In this document: positions 1,130 through 60,744 of the stretch, piece after piece | How positions within the stretch are numbered: position 1 is the stretch's first letter | Layout of the letters: each line of letters starts with the position of its first letter | Made by a program: the position numbers and the translations under genes | Source of the DNA: Phanerochaete sordida | Lineage: Eukaryota; Basidiomycota; Agaricomycetes; Polyporales; Phanerochaetaceae | DNA length: 64,000 bases | Reading direction: 5' to 3' | Assembly (NCBI GenBank): GCA_019973155.2 | Contig: BPQB01000023.1 | Location: 186,001 to 250,000, forward strand | The notes under the pieces: generated by a model | Told to the model about the DNA's origin: nothing | What the model saw: only the letters and a program-made list of their open reading frames with translations | Databases searched by the model: none

Positions 1130-4100
1130 ATGGACGAGATCATGGACGCAGGTCGGAACATCTACCTGAGCGGCGAGCGCGCTCAGTTGCAGCGTATGGC
1201 ATCACGTGTCACTCGACTGGGCGCCCCGCCCTCTTCTTATGTAAGCGGCCTGCTTGACGGCCGCGACTTCAACGGTTCTTCTCGTGTTCACCTGTAGCAC
1301 ACTTCGCTGGCATGGACACCTCGCGAGGCAGAATGCTCCTCGCCGCTCATATCTTCATTGAACACGCCTGTTCCACGTAGCTCAGCTGCGAAGATTATAT
1401 TTAGTCTGGTTTTCCAGAGGTTCTCACGATTATCCTTGCAACCTGTGGAGAATGAACGCCCGGTCCTCTTGAACGCATCCAACTGTGATGCCAGGCAATT
1501 ATGCCTGTAGACCTTTCGACGAGAAGAACGCCCATTCCGCTTGTGAGTAGAGTCTTTCACACATATCGTCAAGCTGCTGAGGCTTCAAATGGCTTGACCA
1601 GTGGCCAGAGACGGATCCGTCGTGGCAATGCACCAAATGCGGGGCAGTGTTCCCGCATATGAACCTAGCGCGGCTACATCTGCGTGTCAAGCACAAGTTC
1701 AGGCTCTTCACAGCTCGTGCAGAGGTATGTGGCAAGTTAGGCGCGACCGTGTTAAGCTGACTTCAGCGTTTCTAGGCAATCGAACGCTGTATCGTCCCTT
1801 CGACTCATGTAGCACCACCCTCCGTGTATAAGGTATGCTGCGTTCTGGACGACCTGTGTAAATCTAGGGTGACACGTCGCGCAAGCACAGCGCCGGTGTT
1901 CTCGCAGGCTGGGCGTACGCTGTCGGCAGGCTGCAAGACGAGGTGGCAATCCGCAGGTGCGTCCACGGTGTCGGATAGCATGCAGAACGCCGTTCCTGAT
2001 TTGACCTCGCTAACAGCCATCATGCCCTAACGATTCTCAGTAACAGCGAGGATGCGCAATCTTTGTCTCCGACGATTGCACTCTTGATCGGTGCGGCACG
2101 TCATCGACGTCCCTTAATTACTGTACGTGTCATGTTAGTTTCTCTACATCATGCTAACAAGTTAAATCAGCTTGCCTCAACTCTGGAGGGAAGAGACCGG
2201 GAGTTTGTGTCTGCGCTTACCCGCGACGAAGAAGAGATTATGAAAGCCATCGTATCTATGTCAGAGACGGATAGACTCGAAATCTCGCGCGTTACCGGGC
2301 AGGAGGCCGCCGACATACTCAACCTACTGGACATGGTCAGTCCATACCTGGCGCCCTGAATTGGGTTGTGACCGACTCCCTCGTTTCACAGGTCCTCCAC
2401 CCAGCGTCGCCCTCCGATTCAGACGGACTCTCGTTCAAAGTAAGCCCCTCCGAATGCGACCCGGACTTAGAACGCTCGCTGCAGCGCGTGTTCGTTCGGC
2501 TCTGCGAGTCGTCGCTGCAGCTTCCGCACCGACTATGGCTATCACAAGTCCATCTCACGGAGCGGCAGCCGGTGGACGGCGGTTCTTATGGCGAGATCTA
2601 CATGGGCACATACGCCGGAAGGAGCGTCGCGCTGAAGTCGCTCCGCGTCCTTCGACATCGCGAGGATAACGCGAAGCATCAGAAGGTCACGCTTATCCTC
2701 ACTTATTTGCTACGATTACTGAATTCCTTCGCGCAGGCCTTCTATAGAGAGGTCGCGATCGTTCGCGGCATAGATCACCAGCATGTCTGCCCGATTATTG
2801 GGGTGGACCGGGACTCGCTCTCGGGGGTTACATGTGTGGTGCTGCCATGGATGGAGTACGGGAACGTTCTGCAGTACCTCGCGAAAGTAGGATGGTCGCC
2901 CGAGGATGCCGTCCGGCTTGTCAGTATCATACTTGCAGCGATGTGTCTGCTGTGGCTGACTGCTCACCAGATTCATCAAGTCGCATCGGGTCTCGCATAC
3001 CTGCACGACCAGGGCGTTGTCCACGGAGACCTGCATGTTGTAAGAACCTCCCGTGCTTCCCTGTACATCTGACCGAATTCACTTCCGCAGGGAAATATCC
3101 TCGTGGATGCAGATAAAAATATTCACCTCGCAGATTTTGGGCTTGCAAACTTCGCCGACGCGGCGATGAGCTGCAGCTCTGCACAGCCTGGAGCAACACG
3201 CTGCATGGCGCCGGAGATTTTCGACCCCGTTCGGTTTCGGCTTCCGCGAGTGCAGCACACGCCCGCCAGCGATGTATATTCGTTCGGTCAGGTCTCCTGG
3301 CAGGTACTGAGGATGACTTAAGTCTACACTTTCTGCGTTCTGACATATGTCTAGATCTACACAGGCGAGATTCCGTTTTCAGACCTCGGAAATTATCAAG
3401 CCATGTTCGCTATACTGGATGGCAAGAGCCAAGATCGCTCGGTATCGGAAAGGCCCATCCCCAACGCTTTGTGGGGTATCTTGCAAGACTGCTGGTACTT
3501 CGAGCCAGCGCAGCGCGCCGAGATCTCTTCACTGTCTCAACGACTCGAGAACCTTGATATACCTCGCCTCCTCGACCCACGCCGTTCGTCCCCCACGCCT
3601 GAGGCAGACCGAGCCATCGAACAGCCAGAGCAACATGAAGATGCCATACCCGACTTAACCGACGACGAGCAGCTGTCAGGCGGTGCTGAGTTATTTGGCG
3701 AGCAAATAGACCTTGTTAGCTGCGAGGTGAAGGATATCATACCGGGAAAATCCCCAAAGTCACACCTGGCGCTAGCCACGGCACGTTCGACAGAAGCATG
3801 GCTGCAAGACCTTCGGACGTTGTTACACCAGGCCAAGGATTACTTTCCCGACGTCGTCTGGCAATCCGGTGATGGCAAGGAAATCGAAACAGGGCATTCC
3901 ACGGATGTCTGGGGACACTCAGGTACGTCACTGGTTAAAGCCTCAGGATACAATGTGCGGCTCTGACTGCGGAATTCCTGTAGCCATCGTGTCAAGCCGC
4001 GCGTCTGCAGACTTTCACAAGAACTACTTCACATCAATATTATCGCCGAACTCTGGATCTCTCGCCCGAATTGTAGACTGCGACACGCTCCTTCTTGGAC

Positions 4101-23890: not shown

Positions 23891-26030
23891 ATGGGTCCGC
23901 GTAGTGGTCCATTCACTGCCGGGTCTCTCAAGTTGCCACGACCGACAGGGCCACCAAAGCCGCGCCCTTCTCTGCCTCTTTCGAGCACATTTTGCTGTGT
24001 GAAATGCCGCGCCGTTGTTTGGACAGAAGGCATTGCCCGCCTGCATATTCGGATTAAGCATACAGCCTGGATATTATCCTCTCAATCTAATGTGCGTACA
24101 GATTGTGCGTACAGCACTCAGACGTACTGAAGCAGTGGTTGCACAGGATGTCATCTCTCTGATGTCCCTCACTCCTCGAACTGAAGCGCATATGTTATAT
24201 GAGGTCCTTGTCCACCCCGTCGTGTGAGCAGTATCTGACATTATGCTCATGATATTCCACAGCACACATCCGACTTCATTGCACGCAAGGCGTTGGCGTT
24301 GGGATGGCTGCAGGAATCTCGTGCTGCAACTAGGTAATCTCAACCACTCCTAGGCGCATTGCATGGCACGGGTCTAATATCTACCAATATTCACAGCTAC
24401 AGGGTACTAGAAGCGCTGATGGACACCAGTGATCGACCATCATCTTCTTCACTCATCAATCACCTTCTTCGAGTACCACGACATCGCACTGCGGTGTTGG
24501 AGGTAGGAACCCCGTCTCACAGGCTAGCTTATAGCTGATGCGCATTTGAAGGTGGCATCTTCGCTAGGCGACTCGGATCCTGAGCTGTTGAATGCAATAA
24601 TGAAAGACGAGAAGAAGATCTCGGACATTCTCTGCTCTATGACAGATGCGGATAAAAGCGCAGTAGAACTTCTCGAACGGAGCTCTGCCGCAGACTTCCT
24701 CGATCTTCTAGACTTGGTGCGCTGATCTGCATCGGTATCATGCTGGTATCTAATAGATTTTTGACCCAGGTCATGCATTCTTCGTCATCGACTAGTTCGG
24801 ATCCTGCTCTACTCAAATTCAAGATCTCAAGACAAGTCAAGGAGATGCAACCCTCCCTGCGACGTCTCTTTGTCAGGCTTTGTCAATCTTCCAACTCGCT
24901 TCCGCACAGGCTTCAGATCAGCAATGTCCAGCTAACAAGCTCGGTACAAGTGGCTGCTGGCGCGTATGGGGTCATACACAGAGGAAAGTATGGCGAGAAG
25001 GAAGTGGCCCTGAAATCGGTCCGCGTTCTACACGAATATACCGTTACCACGAAGGAGAAGAGCCGAAAGGTATCTTTAATGACCTTCAGTACTGCATCTG
25101 CTGAATGCCTCTTGCAGTCTTTCATCAAGGAGATCGCCATCAACCGCACACTTGACCACCCCAACATCTGTCCACTTATCGGTATATGCGAGTCACCCGC
25201 AGATTCGATCTGTGTCGTGCTTCCTTGGATGGAGAACGGAAACATTCAGCAATTCTTGGAACCGACCCGGTGGACCACAATGGTTGTGATGCGACTGGTC
25301 AGCTTCACTCGACCCTGAGGTTTGACTGAGCTAATTATTGACAGATTAATCAAGTATTTACGGGCTTATCATACCTCCACGAGAGGAATGTCGTCCATGG
25401 AGACCTGCACGCTGTATGTTGCAGCAGATGTGGCCGGATTCAGCGAATGGCTAACTTATATGGTCTCGTTTGCCAGGGGAATATTCTCATTGATGCTTTC
25501 GGGAACGTCAAGATCTGCGATTTTGGCCTCGCGAACTTCGCCGATTCAGGGAACAGCTGCAGTACAGCGCAGCCTGGTGCGACGCGATGCATGGCGCCCG
25601 AGATCCTAGACCCCTCCCGCTTCTCAATCCCGCGGGTCCAGCATACACCCGCCAGCGACGTGTACTCCTTGGGGCAGGTGTCGTGGCAGGTCCGTCCCCC
25701 ACCAGCTACCACTCGCTGCCCTCGCGCACCGCACTGACGCGATGCAACCAGATCTACAGCAGCCAACCCCCCTTCCCGAAGATGAGCACACCTCAGGCTT
25801 TGTTTGCCATTGTAGATGGCAAAACGCAAGAGCGCTCGGACTGTACAAGGCCTATCCCCGACGAGCTGTGGTCGGTCATGCAGCACTGTTGGCAGTATCA
25901 ACCAGCGGAACGTTCCAGAGCTATGGGCCATGGCGTACCATTTGTCGAAAAATTAGGCGCCGTATTCAACTCGATACTTACCGGATTGAATACCCATTCA
26001 AGGCCATCGTATTCGTGCTACTTACCGTAA
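23891..26030 (+). CDS. C2H2 zinc finger - TKL-like kinase, C terminus altered by a transposon
   Basis: Ten exons: 23891..24091, 24147..24203, 24263..24333, 24397..24502, 24552..24716, 24770..25069, 25118..25297, 25345..25413, 25477..25689, 25752..26030; 546 residues, all phases consistent. It starts MGPRSGPFTAGSL. The finger is C-x2-C-x12-H-x4-H (CVKCRAVVW...HIRIKH). Next come the linker exons of 57, 71 and 106 nt, the 165-nt helical module ending AADFLDLLDL, then a kinase with AAGAYGVIHRG, VALKSV, HGDLH, CDFG and MAPE. Catalytic residues are intact. The last exon runs from QPAERSRA into a transposon inverted repeat, which supplies the final 35 residues and the stop. Skipping the element, the original frame continues for about 15 codons to a stop at 28,010-28,012. 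Confidence 0.88.
25916..25921 (+). repeat. Target site duplication, left copy
   Basis: CAGAGC directly before the left inverted repeat; the same six bases follow the right inverted repeat at 27,958-27,963. Confidence 0.65.
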
Positions 26031-41472: not shown

Positions 41473-44400
41473 CTATAATAGCTTCCACGCGGAGGAAAGG
41501 ATGGGTATGAAGTCTGCCCGCACCTCAGAAATGCTTGGGCGCAGGGACGGTTCAAACTGCCAACAGCGCTCCATGAGGGACCACAGAGTATCTGGGATGT
41601 ATCCTTCGGAATCCGAGCGATCTTGTACTCCGCCCACGATCACGTGGAGGGCTGCCTCAATATCGCTGCTAATCTTAGGAAATGGAAGCCGGCCACTGTA
41701 GATCTGGCGACATTGGTGTCAAGACGACGTGCAGAGATTATGCGCTAAAGACGTACCCGCCATGCAGTCCGGCCTAGGGAATATATATCACTAGCGGGCA
41801 TATTCTTGACGGGGCAAAAGTCGGGATGTAGTTTCTCGGGCGCCGAAAAGCGCGTGGAGACATGACCGAAATATTCCGTATCAACAGTCGTCGGAGAGTC
41901 TGCGAAGTTCGCGTAGCTGAAGCCACATAGCTTGATGTGCCCTGAACTGTCCACTAAAATATTGTCCTAATTCAATAGCCTATCAACTATCCACGCTGAC
42001 CGTTCTTGGTTGATCATACATACGGGGTTCAAATTGCCATGGACAACATTCATTTCGTGGAGATATGACAATCCCGCGATCACTTGGGAGTTCTGTTCAT
42101 TTATAATTATTCGGTTTGGCGGTATCTTTGTGTAGATACCAGGACTCACCAATCGCATTGTGGTAGACGCAGACCATCTGACTGCTGTCAAATATTCCTC
42201 AACGTTTCCGTTCGCCATCCAGGGGAAAACCATATTGGTTCGCGGATTCACAAGCGGTCCCTGTGGCTTGGTATGCCTGTATTGTACTCCAATAATTGAG
42301 ATAATATGGGCGTGGCGAAGACCTCGAAGAAGTGCAATCGCTTTGTGATCTGTCTGTGCAATCATCGCAGGTGATCGAAGTTATTGAAGTGTAGACGGCA
42401 GTTGTAGGACTTACCCTCGGATAGTACCATTGAAGACTTCCGATAGACAATACGCGGGGGGTGCACACGGCTACGGCCATTCCTGCAGACATCCCTTTGG
42501 ATGTATATGTATGGGAGCCTCCTGCGTAGGACCCATAATCGAAATCGACCTCTATGCGGGTTCGCAGCCATAATTTGGACGGTTGTCGCTCTGACGCAAC
42601 GCACAGTTGCACAAATATGTGCAACACCGAGCGCCGGAGTGACGAATTGCCAGACAGCATGTCGTTGTTGTAGACCGGTAATGTAGGATTCAGTATCTAA
42701 AGGATTCCTCAGTTCGACGTCCTGCAACAAGAACAAAAGCGTGCCAATATACCAGGTCAAGGATATCTAAAATTTTGATTGCTGCATGGCCTCGAAGTTG
42801 TAGAAGCTCACTTTGCGACTCTTGCATAGTACGGATGAGGCATTCGATGCTGCTCTCATTGCGAATAAGCTTTGGGATGAGCTTCTGGTAGTTTTGCGAG
42901 TCACCTGATGATAAACCGTTGTAAAATGAACGATCCGCGATATTATAGAAGACGTACTATATACGATAGCTCTCCAGTCGGTCTTGCTAGGAGGCTGCAT
43001 GAGTGTGTAAAGCTGTTGGCAGGCCTCGGAGGCGCTAATGCGATCCAACGGTTGACAGTGCCAGCATGCTGTCATTACATTCCATAGAGACGGGAAAACG
43101 TATCTGTCAGAGGCCTGACTCTCCGGACATTCTCCTCTGAGTCTGGCTATTAGCACTTCAAAACCATGCTCCAGTCGTGGAAAAGGCATCTGTCGTGTGT
43201 ATATCTGGAAAAGACAGTTATATTACGAGCATCAGGATCTAATCTCGTTCTTATTAATTTGGGACAATACCTGCCATGCGAGCTGGCCAAATGAGTACAT
43301 ATCGCTGGGAGGGGTGTGTCGAACTTGTGAAAGTTTGTACGAGTCTGGAAATAGGACCTCAGGAGCCATATACCGGATAGCTCCCGTTTGAGCAGTGCTG
43401 CGGCTTTGGCCTGCATCTGAGAGATTTCCGCGGCCGAAGTCGGTCAAGCGAACATCTCCAGCCCCATCCAATAAAATATTTCCCTGAAGGGCTGAGGTTA
43501 GCTGGTTCCTACGCAGAGCACGCATAGAAGAACGCACTGGGTGCAGGTCACCATGAACAATGCCCGCTTCATCATGCAGATACTCCAGTCCTTCTACGAT
43601 CTGAAAAATCTGTGAAAACGAGAGCAATAAGCTAAATTTCCATACAAACGAAGAGAAAGATCCAACCATTCGAATTGCATCCGCTTGACACCACCAAGAA
43701 TACTGAAGATACTGCCCGACGTTACCATTAGCCGTCCAGGGCAACACTAGCACGGGACGCCTTGTCGAGAGCTCTAGATCGACACCTAGAACAGGGCATA
43801 TGCGCGTGTGGTTCGTCGATCGCATGAGCGCAACCTCTCTGTACACCGCCTGGTAGGACATTTTAGTAGTGTTTATGCCAGATTTTGGACCATCCATACA
43901 CCTTACTTTAAGATTTTTTGCAGTCTCGTGATCGTCGTCACGACTGAGCAGGCGAGGGACCTTCAGAGCTACGACATTTCCGTCGTGTGTTGCCTTGTAT
44001 ATGTCTGCGAATGAGCCCATCCCATCTGCCCCATTCGATGGCTTCCGCACATTTGATAGTATCCACTGTGCCGGGAACCGAAGCGATCTCTCGCACAGGC
44101 GTACGAGAACATGTCGCAGCGATTTCTCCAAGGTCTTCCGGTGCTCTCCTACGCACTCTCCGAGATGGAGGTCGCCGGACGCTCGGTTTAAGATCTGAGA
44201 CACAGGGGATGAAGGGCTTTATCATCGTAGCTGGGTATAAAGAGTACGTACTGTATCAACAAGCGACAACATGTCGACAGCTTGTCGATCACGAAAACCC
44301 GTGAGCATATCGCGCTGAGGGTCGCCAAGAGAGTGAAAGACAGTGATGAGGTGTCCGTCATCCAGGTCCTGCGCGAAGGACACCTTGGATTCATCTCTGC

Positions 44401-45264
44401 AGTACTTGCGCACAAGCTGACAAAATTACATTAGCGGGACTTAAGAGCGGGGATATCAGGTCAACATTACTTTTTGCAGAGAGTTTCGACGTTGTGAGGC
44501 GTGCGTCAAGTAGTTTACGGCAAATCGATCTTCGCGTTGGGGCTCGGTGACTCGAAGACCTTCCAAGACATCGCAGCTGTCAGAAGTATTGAATTTACCA
44601 CCACAACTCCACTCCGCAATTACAGAGGGGTGACTTACATCTTTTGAATGGCGCACTCTTCTACCTCAACCCAGCCATGTTCGTATACCTCCTCCGCAAG
44701 TACCAGGGCACTACGGGTATCAGCAACATCAATATTATCTTGCCACCACTCTGTAGTTGCGCTCCACTGGCTTACCTTTCTTGGATGGCATTATCACTCA
44801 GATCAATCCATTCGCTGTCGTATGCCTCCTTTGCGAGTATCAGAGACTCGCGGCTGCCAGAAACGTCGAAGTGAGCTCAGTACCACCCTGTCGTTGAAAC
44901 TAAGCGCCGCACCTGCTTTGGACGGAGCACTCGTCGATACCAGTCCATTCGCGGTTGCATACCTCCTCCGCAAGTATTGCAGCAACATGCTTGCAAACGA
45001 TGCCGTAATGAACTATGTAATCCATGCCTTATTTGTGATCCACTCACCTTGTACACGAAAACAGCCGATGCTGAAGAAACCCTCAAAGACTTGACGACCG
45101 CCTGGAAGGAGCAATATCAGCTCACAGAGCACGTCTCCATTTTACTGAACACCGACTTGAATTTCCGTTATATTATGCCTTGCGTACAGATGGATTCGAG
45201 CGGTATTCCAGTTCAAGCCGACATTTCTGCACTTGATACACTCCCAAGGCGCGCTGAGGTCCAT
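41473..45264 (-). CDS. Tandem kinase-pseudokinase with C2H2 finger and triplicated linker
   Basis: Eighteen exons, complement: 45264..45146, 45081..45048, 44989..44913, 44853..44776, 44710..44639, 44576..44471, 44416..44252, 44194..43907, 43849..43667, 43609..43538, 43483..43271, 43204..42958, 42904..42753, 42696..42415, 42353..42150, 42092..42024, 41966..41757, 41703..41473. They total 2,802 nt, 933 residues, phases consistent. Finger CIKCRNVGL...HLYARH at residues 9-30. Three homologous linker exons (about 52-127). Helical module (about 163-217). Kinase 1 (about 218-545) with GMGSFADIYK, VALK, HGDLH, TDFG and MAPE intact. Second helical module (about 552-602). Kinase 2 (about 603-933) with VAVC, HGNLN and CGFS in place of VAVK, HGD and DFG. 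The joining intron, 42,957-42,905, is 53 nt with GTACGT donor and CAG acceptor. Alternatively kinase 1 could end at 42,767. Confidence 0.85.
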
Positions 45265-46084
45265 GGATGATCCCTGAACCGCCATACCAGATGAGGGTGT
45301 CGTGATAGTGATACAAGTCTGTACTTACATGAAGTGAAGACGAGTCCATGGGTGCTGCACGTGTCGCAGAACGATAGTTCTTCTGATACTAGAGAAAGAA
45401 GAGTGCTCACGGTTGGGTCGTCTGTACAGCACCTTATATGTGACCTGCGTCAAGGCGGTATGCCCGGTACCTATTGGGACGTCTTATAGGTTCGGCGCAT
45501 GCTAAGTACAGCCACGGGAGATAACATTCACTAGCGTGCGAAAGCTTAGACCGTCATCCGCGGAACGTATATCCAGCGCCCAGAAGACGACGCTCATGCT
45601 CCGCAATTGTGAGCACCAGGTTCCATCAGCATAGGAATAATGGTGTACTGTGGTAGCAAAGGTAGTGGGAGAGAGGGCTGTCTGACAATATTTACAAGTC
45701 ATGCGCGGGTGGGCGAGGACCAGAGGAAAGGGAGGACATCTCAGAATTTCTTCCTGCACAGCACGTTCAGCGCCTCACGGCTGGCGCTTTACTTCTTACT
45801 CCGTGCACATTCCGCAGCCGCGAGGGATAGCAGCACCTAGCGCGAACCTCATCACCCGTGTAATGCGCATCCGGCACCCGCAACAACACTGCAGGCGGTC
45901 TGGACTTCGAGTGGTTTCGCCCAGTTCTCGTACAAGCCGATTTTAAAAGATTCTGGTACCTGAAAAGCTACTCACAGACATCGTAGACAGTTCTTATTAC
46001 GGCGGCATCGGGCCCGTGGTATAGAACGTTTTTGATCCTAATTGGAAGAAGCACCTCATTGAAATCGCCGTATACGCGGTCACT
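45265..46084. other. Upstream region of tandem kinase; no clear gene
   Basis: A minus-strand ORF at 45,502-45,759 (MQEEILRCPPFP..., with CKYCQTALSPTTF) looks partly protein-like but has no recognised family. It could be an untranslated or decayed 5' part of the kinase gene. Nothing else stands out. Confidence 0.35.
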
Positions 46085-52449: not shown

Positions 52450-54598
52450 ATCTAGGACGGTCGCCATCCTCTCTCTGGTATCCTAACTCCGGCCGTGGCG
52501 ACGATAGTGACTGTGACAGTGACTGCAGCGAACTTGCGGTTGGGAGGAGCGCAGTCGTTCAATACACATGTGGACAGTGCGGGGCAGCGTACCTACATCG
52601 GGACACCACACGTCTACATTTACGCGCCGAACATGCTTCCAAGCGATCAATATTTTCGCCGCGAGGGCAGGTAACGCATTGTCCAGCCGTGTTATGACGT
52701 TACTACTGATTTATCACTGGCAGCAGGGTTTCGAATCTGCGAATATTGAGCCCTCTATTCTTCATCTGGGATCTACATTCGAGGCATACGAGGTGACCTA
52801 CGATACTCATCCACCTCTCAATACTTACGATTATGTTTCAAGAATACTACGAAGGTACTGGCCACCCGCGCATGCAATCTTCTACAGTATTATACCGAGT
52901 TTCATGAGAAGCTGATTTCGACCTGGTACGGCTCCTGCCATCATGGCCGCTCCAAAGCCTCGCAATCTGAATCAGCAGCGATCTCTAGCTATCAGACGAT
53001 TAAGGCCCTTTCCCATCGCTACAATCTTACGTCTTCGACCAGGATTGAGCGCGCTATACACGCATCAAGGCATCGCAAGGATCTACTACACGTGAGTAAA
53101 TGTCGTCAGAGATCGCTCATAACGACTGACACTCATGAGTTCCATCGTAGCTTCTATCGACGTTAGGAGGTTTTGATGAAGAAGTGGTGTTCGGGCTGAA
53201 ATGTGATGAGGGCGTTATTCTGACCGACTTGCGAGGACTTTCTGACGACGAGAAAAACACGCTATTGGATCTTCGAGGGAAGGTAGCTGCAGACATGCTC
53301 GGGTTGTTTGACTTGGTACGAGTTTCATTCTACGCTTGACGCGGAGTCTTGAGCATCATTTGTGCCTACCAGGTTCTATGCCCCCAGTATAGCATTTTGC
53401 CAGACACTCTGCCATTTCAAGCCATACGATCGATCGATTCCGACGAATTTCTACACGCTCTGAAGCGCTTGTTCGTGCGCCTTTGCGAAGCGTCACTGCA
53501 GCTCCCGGACGCGCTGTGTCTAGCAAATGTCCAGGTCGACAATCAACACCCGGTAGATCAGGGATCGTTTGGAATCATCTACAAGGGTATGCTTGGGGGA
53601 AATGCGATCGCTTTGAAGGCAATCCGCATCTTCGCGCAGCGGCAAGACAGCACGAAGGCCCAGAAGGTCGGGTACCTCATAATTGACATCTGTATCACAT
53701 ATACTCATTTAATGGTTGAGAAGGCGTTTTACAGAGAGGTCGCTCTACTTCGCGGCTTGAGTCACAGGAATATCTGTTCAATCATTGGTGTCGATCGGAC
53801 GACATTCTCGGAATCCATCTGCATCGTACTCCCCTGGATGTATTATGGGAATGTTATGAGATATCTAGATCGGGTCGGATGGTCTCAAGAAGATGCCATA
53901 CACATGGTGCGTATGAGACCTTTACTGTACTATGATAGACCTGACTGAGACACTAGATCTGTCAAGTGGCTGCTGGCTTGGCATATTTGCACTCTCAAGG
54001 TATTGTACACGGAGATTTACACGTAGTAAGCACCCCAAGACTGGGTTGCCGACGCGCTTGCGCAACTAATCAGAGTATCGTGTAGGGAAATATCCTTGTA
54101 GACACATCGAAGATTGCTGTGCTGGCCGACTTTGGGCTCTCAAACTTTGCAGACGCAGGAGCGAGCTGCAGCACCGCGCAGCCCGGCGCGACGCGCTGCA
54201 TGGCGCCAGAAATCTTCCATCCTGCGCGCTTCGACCTCCCACGTAGTCAGCACACACCTGCAAGCGACATGTACTCATTTGCTCAGGTATGTTGGCAGGT
54301 GAGCATTCCTCCGTTTGGGGCTCTCGAAGAATGCCACGACCGCTGACATGATTCGCCCTAGATATATACCGGCAATATTCCGTTCCCGACATTAGCAACA
54401 GTTCAAGTGACGTACGCCATTCTTGAGGGAGAGATACAAGACAGGGGGCAATCGACACGCCCTTTCCCTGACTTCCTATGGGACACAATGCTCGAGTGCT
54501 GGCGCTACGAGCCCTCCACCCGTCCTGCGGCGAACGAAGTACGAGATCCGCTTCAGATTCCTCTAAATCCGTACAGTGTATTGTCTTTCCCTTGGTAG
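52450..54598 (+). CDS. C2H2 zinc finger - TKL-like kinase
   Basis: Exons from the finger onward: <52450..52670, 52724..52792, 52843..52925, 52989..53091, 53151..53315, 53373..53666, 53724..53906, 53957..54025, 54086..54298, 54362..54598; phases consistent. The finger is CGQCGAAYL...HLRAEH (C-x2-C-x12-H-x4-H), preceded by an Asp/Ser-rich stretch. The helical module ends VAADMLGLFDL. Kinase: QGSFGIIYKG, IALK, HGDLH, ADFG, MAPE; C-lobe ends LECWRYEPSTRP with a short tail to TAG at 54,596. All catalytic residues are present. The 5' exons are uncertain. Its closest architecture is the kinase at 23.9 kb. Substrates unknown. Confidence 0.85.
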
Positions 54599-58071: not shown

Positions 58072-60744
58072 ATGGAATCCAACATTGACAATGATATCGA
58101 GGCGCACTACATCAGGACTTTCTTCTGCAAGGCCCTGTACGACTATCAGCACGGCGACGACCCGGACTCAAACGAGCTTCGCTTTCGTCGTGGAGACATC
58201 ATCGAAGTTCTTACACGTCTCGAGTCCGGATGGTGGGATGGACTCCTAGGAGAGCAGCGAGGCTGGTTTCCTTCAAATTATGTGGCCGCAATAACAGACA
58301 GCGAGGCCTGCGCGGCTCTGGCGGCATTTACGGGCCAGGCTGAAAGCGAGGCAGAGGAAGGAAGGCCGTCAGCAGGGAGCGTTGAGGGCAGCTCAGGTAC
58401 GTATACCGTGCTTTCAGAGATTTTTCACCGCTCATTTGTAATCGTGAAGACGAGACTGTGACCGAAGTAGTTAGCATAATCCCCATTTCGGACGACCGAA
58501 TCAGCCCCACGTCGTCAGAGGACTCGGAAATTTTATATGTGAGCGTGAGTTGTTTTGAGATAGCGTTCCACTTATCACTACTTCGTAGGAGCTCGATATC
58601 GACACGCAAGAAGAACAGCCGCCACCCCCTACTTCATATTGGTCATGCGAGAGATGCGAAGCAGCGTTCGTTCAAAAAGACATGGCGCGGCTGCACGTTC
58701 ACGTCAAACACCTATCGAATTTTGAGAAATTGCAGTCCCAATCCGAGGTACGCACACGTATACGGTCCTGCCGCTGGGATTGACGCAGGGCGATCGGTAG
58801 ACGGCTGAACGCTGGATTACAGCGAGATCACGCACAGAACCTATCACTCCTCTGGAGGTACGCCGCTTTCTGTCTCAACGGCAACTCACGCTGATCGACG
58901 GGTAGTTTTCCTGTGGCGTACTCGCTGGAAAGGTGCTTTCTATGAGCAGTTTCATGATCATGTTTTTGAGTGCTGGGTGCGCTTTCCATCCAGCGTTGTA
59001 TAGAGCTCTCTAATGTATTGATATCATATAGCTATAATGCCTATCAAGTGCTAGAGTCTCTTACTCTCGAGGCACAGGATCTGTCACTATCCTCATCTGT
59101 CAACTTCCTAATAACTGTGGCGTTACATCGACCATCTATCTTGAAGGTTAGCATGCCATGTTGCGACCTTCAGCTTAAATCCATAAATTCACTTCTACGT
59201 AGCTTGCAAGTACGCTCGGTGACACAAATGGAGCCTTCAGAGATGCGTTGATACGCGATATAGAGCACGTACGACGGGTTATCAGCTCCTTGTCAGAGAG
59301 CGAGAAGAAAGATATCATGGGCCTCCGCGGAGACCGGGCAGCCGATGTACTCGATCTAATTAATGTAGTATGTTATCCTATCTCAATCCTTTACGCCCTT
59401 CTTTTGACTGGAGTATTGGCGTGAAAGATTCTACCGGCCATGAATCATATCCCTCAGTCGCCCTGGGACCATTTATTCCAATTGTACGACGTACAGCAAA
59501 GTCGAAGACTACAAGATAACTTGAGCAGGATCTTCGTACGATTGTGCGAGTCATCCCTTCAACTTCCGAGGCGGCTGTACCTGTCGGAGGTCCGCATGCA
59601 GAGTCAGCGCGCGGCGGCCAAGGGGTCATTCGGGGAGATATTCGAAGGTAATTATAAGAGTACGCATGTCGCTCTCAAAACACTCCGCGTCTTTGAGACC
59701 AGAGAAGATAACACAAAGAACCAGAAAGTACGTTAAAACCGCCTGGGACGCGGCGCTCATAGTTAACAGCACACGCATAGGCATTCTTCAGGGAAATCGC
59801 TCTTCTCCGGTGCATACACCACCAGCACATATGCCCAATCATAGGCGTTGATATGACGTCGATTGCCGGGGCTACATGCTTGGTGTTGCCCTGGATGGAG
59901 TACGGTAATGTCCTCGCGTACAGATCGCGAATGAACTGGTCCAGCTCAGATGCGATACGATTGGTCAGTTGTGTCCCTACCTGTGGCCAGATTGTGTACT
60001 CACAACGCCCTAGATCTACCAGATCGCGTCTGGGTTGGCATATTTGCACGAGCAGGGCGCTGCCCATGGTGACCTTCACATTGTACGTTCGATACTACTG
60101 GCCATAGCGTGTGCTGATCGAGAGCTCAACGTCTCAAGGGTAACATATTGATTGATTCAGCCAGAGACGTTCGCCTCGCGGACTTCGGCTTCGCCAACTT
60201 CTTCGACGCAGGAGCAAGCTGTAGCTCAGGACAGCCCGGGGCGACGCGCTGCATGGCTCCGAAAATACTCAACCCTGATCTATTTGGCCTTTCACGGGTT
60301 CAGCACACGCCTCAAAGCGACATGTACTCCTTTGGACAGGTGGCGTGGCAGGTGAGGTAGTCCTTACCTGCCTTTACCGACAGAATGTCTTACGCTCCAT
60401 GTTAGATATACACAGAGGAAATACCGTTCCCGAGCTACAACGACCACAGATCCATGTTCGCCATCCTCGAGGGCAAGCATCAGGAACGGCCCACCTCCGG
60501 GAAGCTGATTCCTAACGCGTTTTGGGATATCATGCTGGCGTGCTGGCAGTTTCAGCCCGAAAATCGCGTCGGGGCTGCTGCGGCGCGGGATAACCTTCGC
60601 AAGTTGCTACTTCCCGAGCCTGTGTCGGCGAGGCCCAGTACGATTACGCTTAATAGGCTTCGTCTTACCTCGGACCTCGGACCCAGGCCTTCCAATTTCG
60701 CTGTGATAAATAGGCCTCTGCCTCCTCTACCCGAAGTCGACTAG
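58072..60744 (+). CDS. SH3 - C2H2 zinc finger - TKL-like kinase
   Basis: Twelve exons: 58072..58396, 58450..58538, 58589..58747, 58823..58857, 58906..58932, 59032..59146, 59203..59364, 59428..59727, 59781..59963, 60014..60082, 60139..60351, 60406..60744; 2,016 nt, 671 residues. SH3 at residues 17-75 (CKALYDYQHGD, RRGDIIEVLTRLESGWWDGL, GWFPSNYV) binds Pro-rich ligands and resembles SH3 domains of fungal Ras-GEFs. Finger CERCEAAFV...HVHVKH at about 160. Helical module RRVISSLSESEKKDIMGLRG to ADVLDLIN. Kinase: KGSFGEIFEG, VALK, HGDLH and ADFG intact, but the APE glutamate is Lys (MAPK). An upstream ATG at 57,790 opens a short related frame, so further 5' coding sequence is possible. Confidence 0.87.

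Follow-up and report, generated by a model that had tools for sequence, protein, structure and literature searches.

Structure of the gene

The window analysed here is a 64-kb stretch of Phanerochaete sordida DNA (C23:186001-250000 of the 40.8-Mb, 222-contig assembly that was also used for searches of the own genome). Its minus strand carries a spliced frame of 19 exons and 18 GT-AG introns of 53-66 nt, as derived from translation and splicing. The product has 946 aa when translation starts at the ATG at 45349, or 936 aa from an inner ATG at 45264, and the stop is at 41473; the coding sequence comprises 2,841 nt, or 2,811 nt with the start at ATG 45264. From the N-terminus it encodes a finger and a helical region, then a complete TKL-like kinase (K1), and finally a second helical module followed by a further kinase fold (K2), distributed as follows:

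45329-45349, minus strand: optional exon 1 (MDSSSLH), contained in the public annotation, where protein P0001 starts MDSSSLHGSS
45157-45273, minus strand: exon with a C2H2-like finger (WECIKC...RIHLYARH) and the inner ATG 45264, from translation and splicing; similar fingers occur in relatives
44639-45101, minus strand: four short exons (45101-45048, 44989-44913, 44853-44776, 44710-44639), the last three being copies of one exon
44252-44576, minus strand: first helical module RQAVDMLSLVDTI, exons 44576-44471 and 44416-44252, from alignment to relatives
42958-44194, minus strand: end of the helical module and K1, exons 44194-43907, 43849-43667, 43609-43538, 43483-43271 and 43204-42958, from Pfam, motif table and fold match
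42905-42957, minus strand: junction intron, 53 nt, phase 1, from splice scores; identical in P0001
42753-42904, minus strand: exon of the second helical module LRGHAAIKILDILDL, from alignment to K1 and relatives
41473-42696, minus strand: end of the second helical module and K2, exons 42696-42415, 42353-42150, 42092-42024, 41966-41757 and 41703-41473, with the residue losses given below

The original prediction had combined a finger, a complete kinase, a further helical module and a further kinase fold in one spliced frame of 2,802 nt between 41473 and 45264. Translation and splicing bear out this set of modules in a single frame as well as the 3′ limit, while the frame is longer than proposed (2,841 nt, with an extra exon at 45349-45329 and intron 1 at 45156-45102) and the 5′ limit was probably set too short. 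Our initial model had 18 exons and 927 aa; the annotated intron 1 and first exon were adopted afterwards because of their better splice scores. The intron that follows the optional first exon (45328-45274) has a donor score of 8.7 and an acceptor score of 3.2.

The finger (CIKC...HLYARH) begins at 45240. The last three of the four short exons behind it copy one exon of about 75 nt (LAEEVY...AIQ repeat); the three tandem copies occupy 44989-44577, and the introns after them are partly alike. For the N-terminal residues 1-252 of the 927-aa model, Pfam gave no match at E up to 1, and a search of the own genome with the first 156 residues gave five matches, every one of them the gene itself.

The gene is also present in the public annotation. 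P0001, a 917 aa 'kinase-like protein' of Phanerochaete sordida, is identical to our first model in 892 of 895 aligned residues, the three mismatches all lie at spots where exon choices differ, and the junction between K1 and K2 is the same. We infer that P0001 originates from the annotation of P. sordida YK-624, in which 17,108 genes were obtained by BRAKER2 prediction and manual curation (PMC8530024). P0001 has two introns of its own. One removes 57 nt (44050-43994) that encode the Gly-rich loop of K1 (donor 5.9, acceptor −0.28), the other is an extra splice near the C-terminus (41523-41454), which then ends SECLATCS (donor 6.4, acceptor 0.82). Both donors are ordinary, but both acceptors score below the training minimum of 1.86, a value taken from 35 introns of the gene under study and four relatives. 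We judge both introns to be wrong, the Gly-loop intron being probably a prediction error; the annotated relatives P0238 and P0239 keep the Gly-loop region. A genuine 57-nt intron would mean that K1 is impaired as well. The gene is real and well formed and most likely encodes a single chain. The view that a complete kinase and a pseudokinase follow each other in one gene is supported by P0001, a single chain with the same junction, but one that is itself a prediction.

Junction and catalytic residues of the two kinases

K1 and K2 lie in different frames, which are joined by the intron 42957-42905 (53 nt, GTACGT...CATCAG). Twelve GT-AG introns of 44-89 nt could connect the two frames, and among 1000 dinucleotide shuffles of the 102-nt gap (42995-42894, limits set by the analyst) 555 also contained some frame-joining intron. 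The open frame as such was rejected as evidence for the join, chance joins being frequent; it is the quality of its splice sites that sets this intron apart. The predicted intron has the top score of the twelve (13.3, the next-best join reaching 9.6) and none of the 1000 shuffles scored as high; the splice matrix was trained on 46 introns, from which the junction intron was excluded and some of which are doubtful.

Three further observations bear on the join. The exon after the junction can be aligned to the helical module both in K1 and in the relatives. The conserved ends of K1 and K2 lie about 100 nt apart, so that there is no room for an ordinary intergenic region. As had been predicted, the second half has neither a finger exon nor a good start: no finger precedes K2, and its first in-frame ATG (MQESQ) is found about 25 residues inside the part alignable to the helical module. 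A reading as two genes, with an end of K1 in its own exon and with K2 either transcribed by itself or left as a 5′-truncated copy that is not expressed, could draw on the unspliced K1 frame, which extends to a stop at 42767, and on the many chance joins. The coding stretches would then overlap, however, K2 would start within helical-module homology and lack a finger, and the strong splice sites and the joined halves in the public annotation speak against this reading. We regard two separate genes as clearly unlikely. Splice quality, homology of the next exon, the missing intergenic region and the public annotation together support the join, and expression as one chain is what we infer from them.

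K1 shows the motifs GMGSFA, VALK, YREVAL, HGDLHPGN and DFG between 44023 and 43441, and hence possesses the Lys, Glu, HxD Asp, Asn and DFG of an active kinase. The best stretch for Pfam Pkinase covers residues 269-529 of the 927-aa model. Among the best matches to solved sequences are CTR1, RIPK3, RIPK1, RAF, EGFR and MET. The tyrosine-kinase motif DL(R/A)A(A/R)N is lacking; K1 reads DLHPGN, and its relatives read DLHVGN, DLHAGN, DLHIGN or DLHVRN at the same motif. K1 most likely acts as a kinase of the Ser/Thr type.

At the matching positions (42474-41924) K2 reads VAVC, HKAIAL, HGNLNPDN and GFS. It has thus lost the beta3 Lys (K to C), the alphaC Glu (E to A), the catalytic Asp (HGD to HGN) and the DFG Asp (DFG to GFS), and has retained structural residues; the APE Glu, alphaF Asp and alphaI Arg are still present. 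A kinase fold that lacks at least one of the beta3 Lys, the catalytic Asp and the DFG Asp counts as a pseudokinase, and K2 falls under this definition. Its matches to Pfam PF07714 (E=1.2e-29) and RIPK1 (E=2e-20) exclude a chance similarity. ABL, CSK and the MLKL pseudokinase are, with RIPK1, among its best solved-sequence matches, which place both K1 and K2 on the TK/TKL side of the kinome.

Structure prediction agrees with this. In a second model both K1 and K2 are predicted as complete kinase folds, although its pTM of 0.48 makes it uninformative on contacts between them; its alignment consisted of 17 proteins chosen among those with two kinase stretches. In the first model K2 had not been built, probably since single kinases made up most of the 14 other rows of its alignment. 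A Foldseek search with this first model found kinase structures among the best 50 rows listed.

Could K2 be a functionless passenger, i.e., a decaying kinase copy in a real fusion that has so far escaped stop codons? Its end branch is the longest of the 11 tree rows (2.44, median 0.61), 26 of 75 family-invariant columns are lost, and the matches listed in our protein searches contain no ortholog of the fusion. The frame of K2 is nevertheless open and has five GT-AG introns of its own. When neutral drift of the K1 coding sequence was simulated, 4 of 300 runs were still stop-free at 90% identity and none at 80 or 75%; the nucleotide identity of K1 and K2 is 45%. Identities by codon position (0.46/0.58/0.32 over 371 codons) fit constraint at the protein level. 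The other 49 of the 75 invariant columns are kept, the APE Glu, alphaF Asp and alphaI Arg are retained as stated above, and the losses cluster on catalytic columns: five of six are affected (p=0.017, hypergeometric), the six having been chosen from textbook knowledge after the losses in K2 had been seen. A mere passenger is in our opinion unlikely.

The local kinase family and the origin of the tandem

With K1 and K2 as queries, seven further loci of the family were found in the own genome, the cut being set by the analyst:

~2449-3561, 24827-25922, 53457-54577 and 59500-60618, plus strand: four single-kinase relatives within the 64-kb window
1629, 23996, 52569 and 58646, plus strand: fingers upstream of these four relatives, from a pattern search
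contigs C68 (two) and C59: three further relatives, from the genome search

Matches and spliced alignment gave one kinase for each of the seven loci, and a finger of the same pattern is located upstream of five of them. P0239 and P0238 are the annotated proteins of the loci at 53.5 and 59.5 kb; for P0238 (676 aa), the precomputed Pfam list contains SH3 families besides finger and kinase. Lys, Glu, Asp, Asn and Asp are intact in six of the seven relatives. In W59k a Lys replaces the APE Glu, and C68b reads YGD. The spliced alignment of C68a broke in the catalytic exon, and a three-frame reading gave HGDLHA, GNVLVD and TDFG followed by a frame change downstream. This frame change, in the activation-loop region (L034 ~3300-3760), may reflect a decaying copy or a sequencing error.

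The gene under study shares the finger, the helical module and common intron positions with this small family, whose members cluster locally. Its helical module is the usual prefix of the kinase in the family, and the idea of a special linker between two kinases was rejected, since single-kinase relatives have the module too. By these alignments, the ordinary form of the family is finger, helical module and kinase, and the gene under study departs from it by one additional helical-kinase unit.

K1 and the four single-kinase relatives in the window are 38-54% identical to each other. K1 is 29.4% identical to K2 and 43.3% to W59k, and K2 is 36.2% identical to W25k. Both domains are thus closer to several relatives than to one another, which would fit a fusion of neighbours rather than an internal duplication. 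The tree, in which K2 forms a long branch, nevertheless groups K1 with K2 weakly (42/68), and the groupings of K2 with W25k and of K1 with W59k are not rejected (p-AU 0.24 and 0.26). Five phase-0 intron positions are common to K1 and K2, but they are indecisive on the origin, because most of these positions also occur in the relatives. A tree places K1 and K2 together with the relatives and the Phanerochaete/Phlebiopsis rows, apart from four other Agaricomycete kinases (97/97, with long branches present). C68a was excluded from both trees because its spliced alignment had failed.

Proposed function and comparison with known tandem kinases

Gene structure, residue losses and compatibility with the kinase fold are read directly from the sequence, and the resulting anatomy, one chain with an intact K1 and a degenerate K2, is very probable. 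Regarding its function, K2 most likely regulates K1 in cis. In this gene, a second helical-kinase unit that has no finger continues a complete unit in frame and has lost catalytic residues. According to our model, K1 would act as a Ser/Thr-type kinase, and K2 most likely has the role of a non-catalytic domain with a preserved kinase fold, which restrains K1 or offers it a ligand or substrate and, once bound, releases or directs K1. We assign a probability of roughly 0.55 to this whole account, i.e., the anatomy together with control of K1 by K2.

Three protein searches at E<=0.001 returned 2250, 222 and 124 proteins, of which the best 120 each were considered; the first search scored only the 7995 candidates sharing most words. 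Among the matches listed, no protein but P0001 covers both halves at ortholog level, and the next best in the full search is P0002 with 43% identity over 28% of the query. A scan for kinase domains comprised 366 sequences (357 database proteins and 9 family readings) and found two or more kinase stretches in 57 of them, some being split matches of one domain. In P0242 of Suillus bovinus, the first domain has Asn and Gly at the two Asp positions and the second is intact; P0243, a relative, likewise has a degenerate kinase (HGN, GFS) before an intact one. P0004 of Rhizopogon vesiculosus has Thr and Ser at the Glu and the HxD Asp of its first domain and an intact second domain. An intact first and an altered second domain were found in P0129 of Hordeum vulgare as well as in P0007 and P0014, which we guess to be bacterial. 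Other Agaricomycetes thus have proteins with two kinase domains, one of them degenerate (P0242, P0004); in both, the degenerate domain comes first.

Titles and the openings of abstracts revealed no study of a fungal tandem kinase-pseudokinase, and the accessible part of a review on fungal immunity contains nothing on such proteins (PMC10197012). The claim of novelty made in the original prediction has to be narrowed: the layout with the active domain first was not seen among the fungal relatives examined here, but it is known from plants (WTK1/Yr15). The general kind of protein is known.

If expressed as one chain, the gene would represent a fungal active-first kinase-pseudokinase beside single-kinase relatives in the same cluster. 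Such a cluster is a natural setting for asking how a pseudokinase gets captured and used, a question that is testable because P. sordida transformants exist (PMC8530024). The tandem form is so far one gene in one species.

Janus kinases and GCN2 also combine a kinase and a pseudokinase in one chain, with the pseudokinase first and with other domains. The present gene has the reverse order, and no FERM or SH2 domain appeared among its Pfam matches at E up to 1.

FslK, a fungal kinase lineage close to tyrosine kinases, is expanded in Agaricomycetes, and its members mostly have complete catalytic sites and lack extra domains; the accessible part of the text makes no mention of a tandem form with a pseudokinase (Zhao et al. 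2014, PMC3937382). The absence of the motif DL(R/A)A(A/R)N, noted above for K1 and its relatives, is a feature of FslK. At the GXR(L/M)-type motif, for which FslK have Pro in fourth position, K1 reads GECP, but the relatives read GKSQ, GKTQ, GEIQ and GKHQ. P0242 resembles the gene under study as an Agaricomycete protein with two kinase domains, one of which has HGN and GFS for HGD and DFG. In P0242, however, this is the first domain, and its Lys and Glu are kept.

The arrangement is best known from plant disease-resistance proteins, whereas the host here is a wood-rotting fungus. As far as the accessible parts of the papers show, active-first kinase-pseudokinase chains have been described for WTK1/Yr15 and other plant proteins (PMC6170490, PMC11153570). 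In WTK1 the first domain is intact and the second is without most key residues, and in 92 plant tandem kinase-pseudokinases (TKPs) the pseudokinases are least conserved at both catalytic Asp and the Gly-loop (PMC6170490). These 92 proteins had no further conserved domains according to the accessible text of 2018 (PMC6170490), while the later TKPs Lr9 and Pm57 carry a vWA domain; it was hypothesised that their second domain or the added vWA is an integrated decoy, and the comparison of their pseudokinases gave a relaxed Ka/Ks of 0.77 (PMC10260399, PMC11153570, accessible parts).

By analogy, K2 could be an integrated bait: molecules of parasites or competitors would target a kinase, a copy of which was fused to a signalling kinase. 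Domain order and the kind of residue losses are as in the plant TKPs, and the family is clustered and divergent (the 38-54% identity given above), yet even for the plant proteins the bait is a hypothesis in the available portions of these sources (PMC6170490, PMC10260399, PMC11153570), and for the fungal gene we consider it very improbable. A broader view, that of an independently evolved fungal counterpart of plant tandem-kinase immune sensors in which a captured neighbour kinase would serve as sensing domain and control the active kinase in cis, we hold to be quite improbable; such a putative sensor might perhaps help to ward off antagonists or to recognise non-self.

Compared by anatomy, the fungal gene differs from the TKPs as defined in 2018 by its finger and helical modules, which are common to its relatives, and from plant TKPs, which belong to plant kinase families, in that its nearest relatives are Phanerochaete kinases. 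It combines a kinase and a pseudokinase in one predicted chain, the feature that characterises plant TKPs, and like these it has the intact domain first and the degenerate domain, with both catalytic Asp lost, second.
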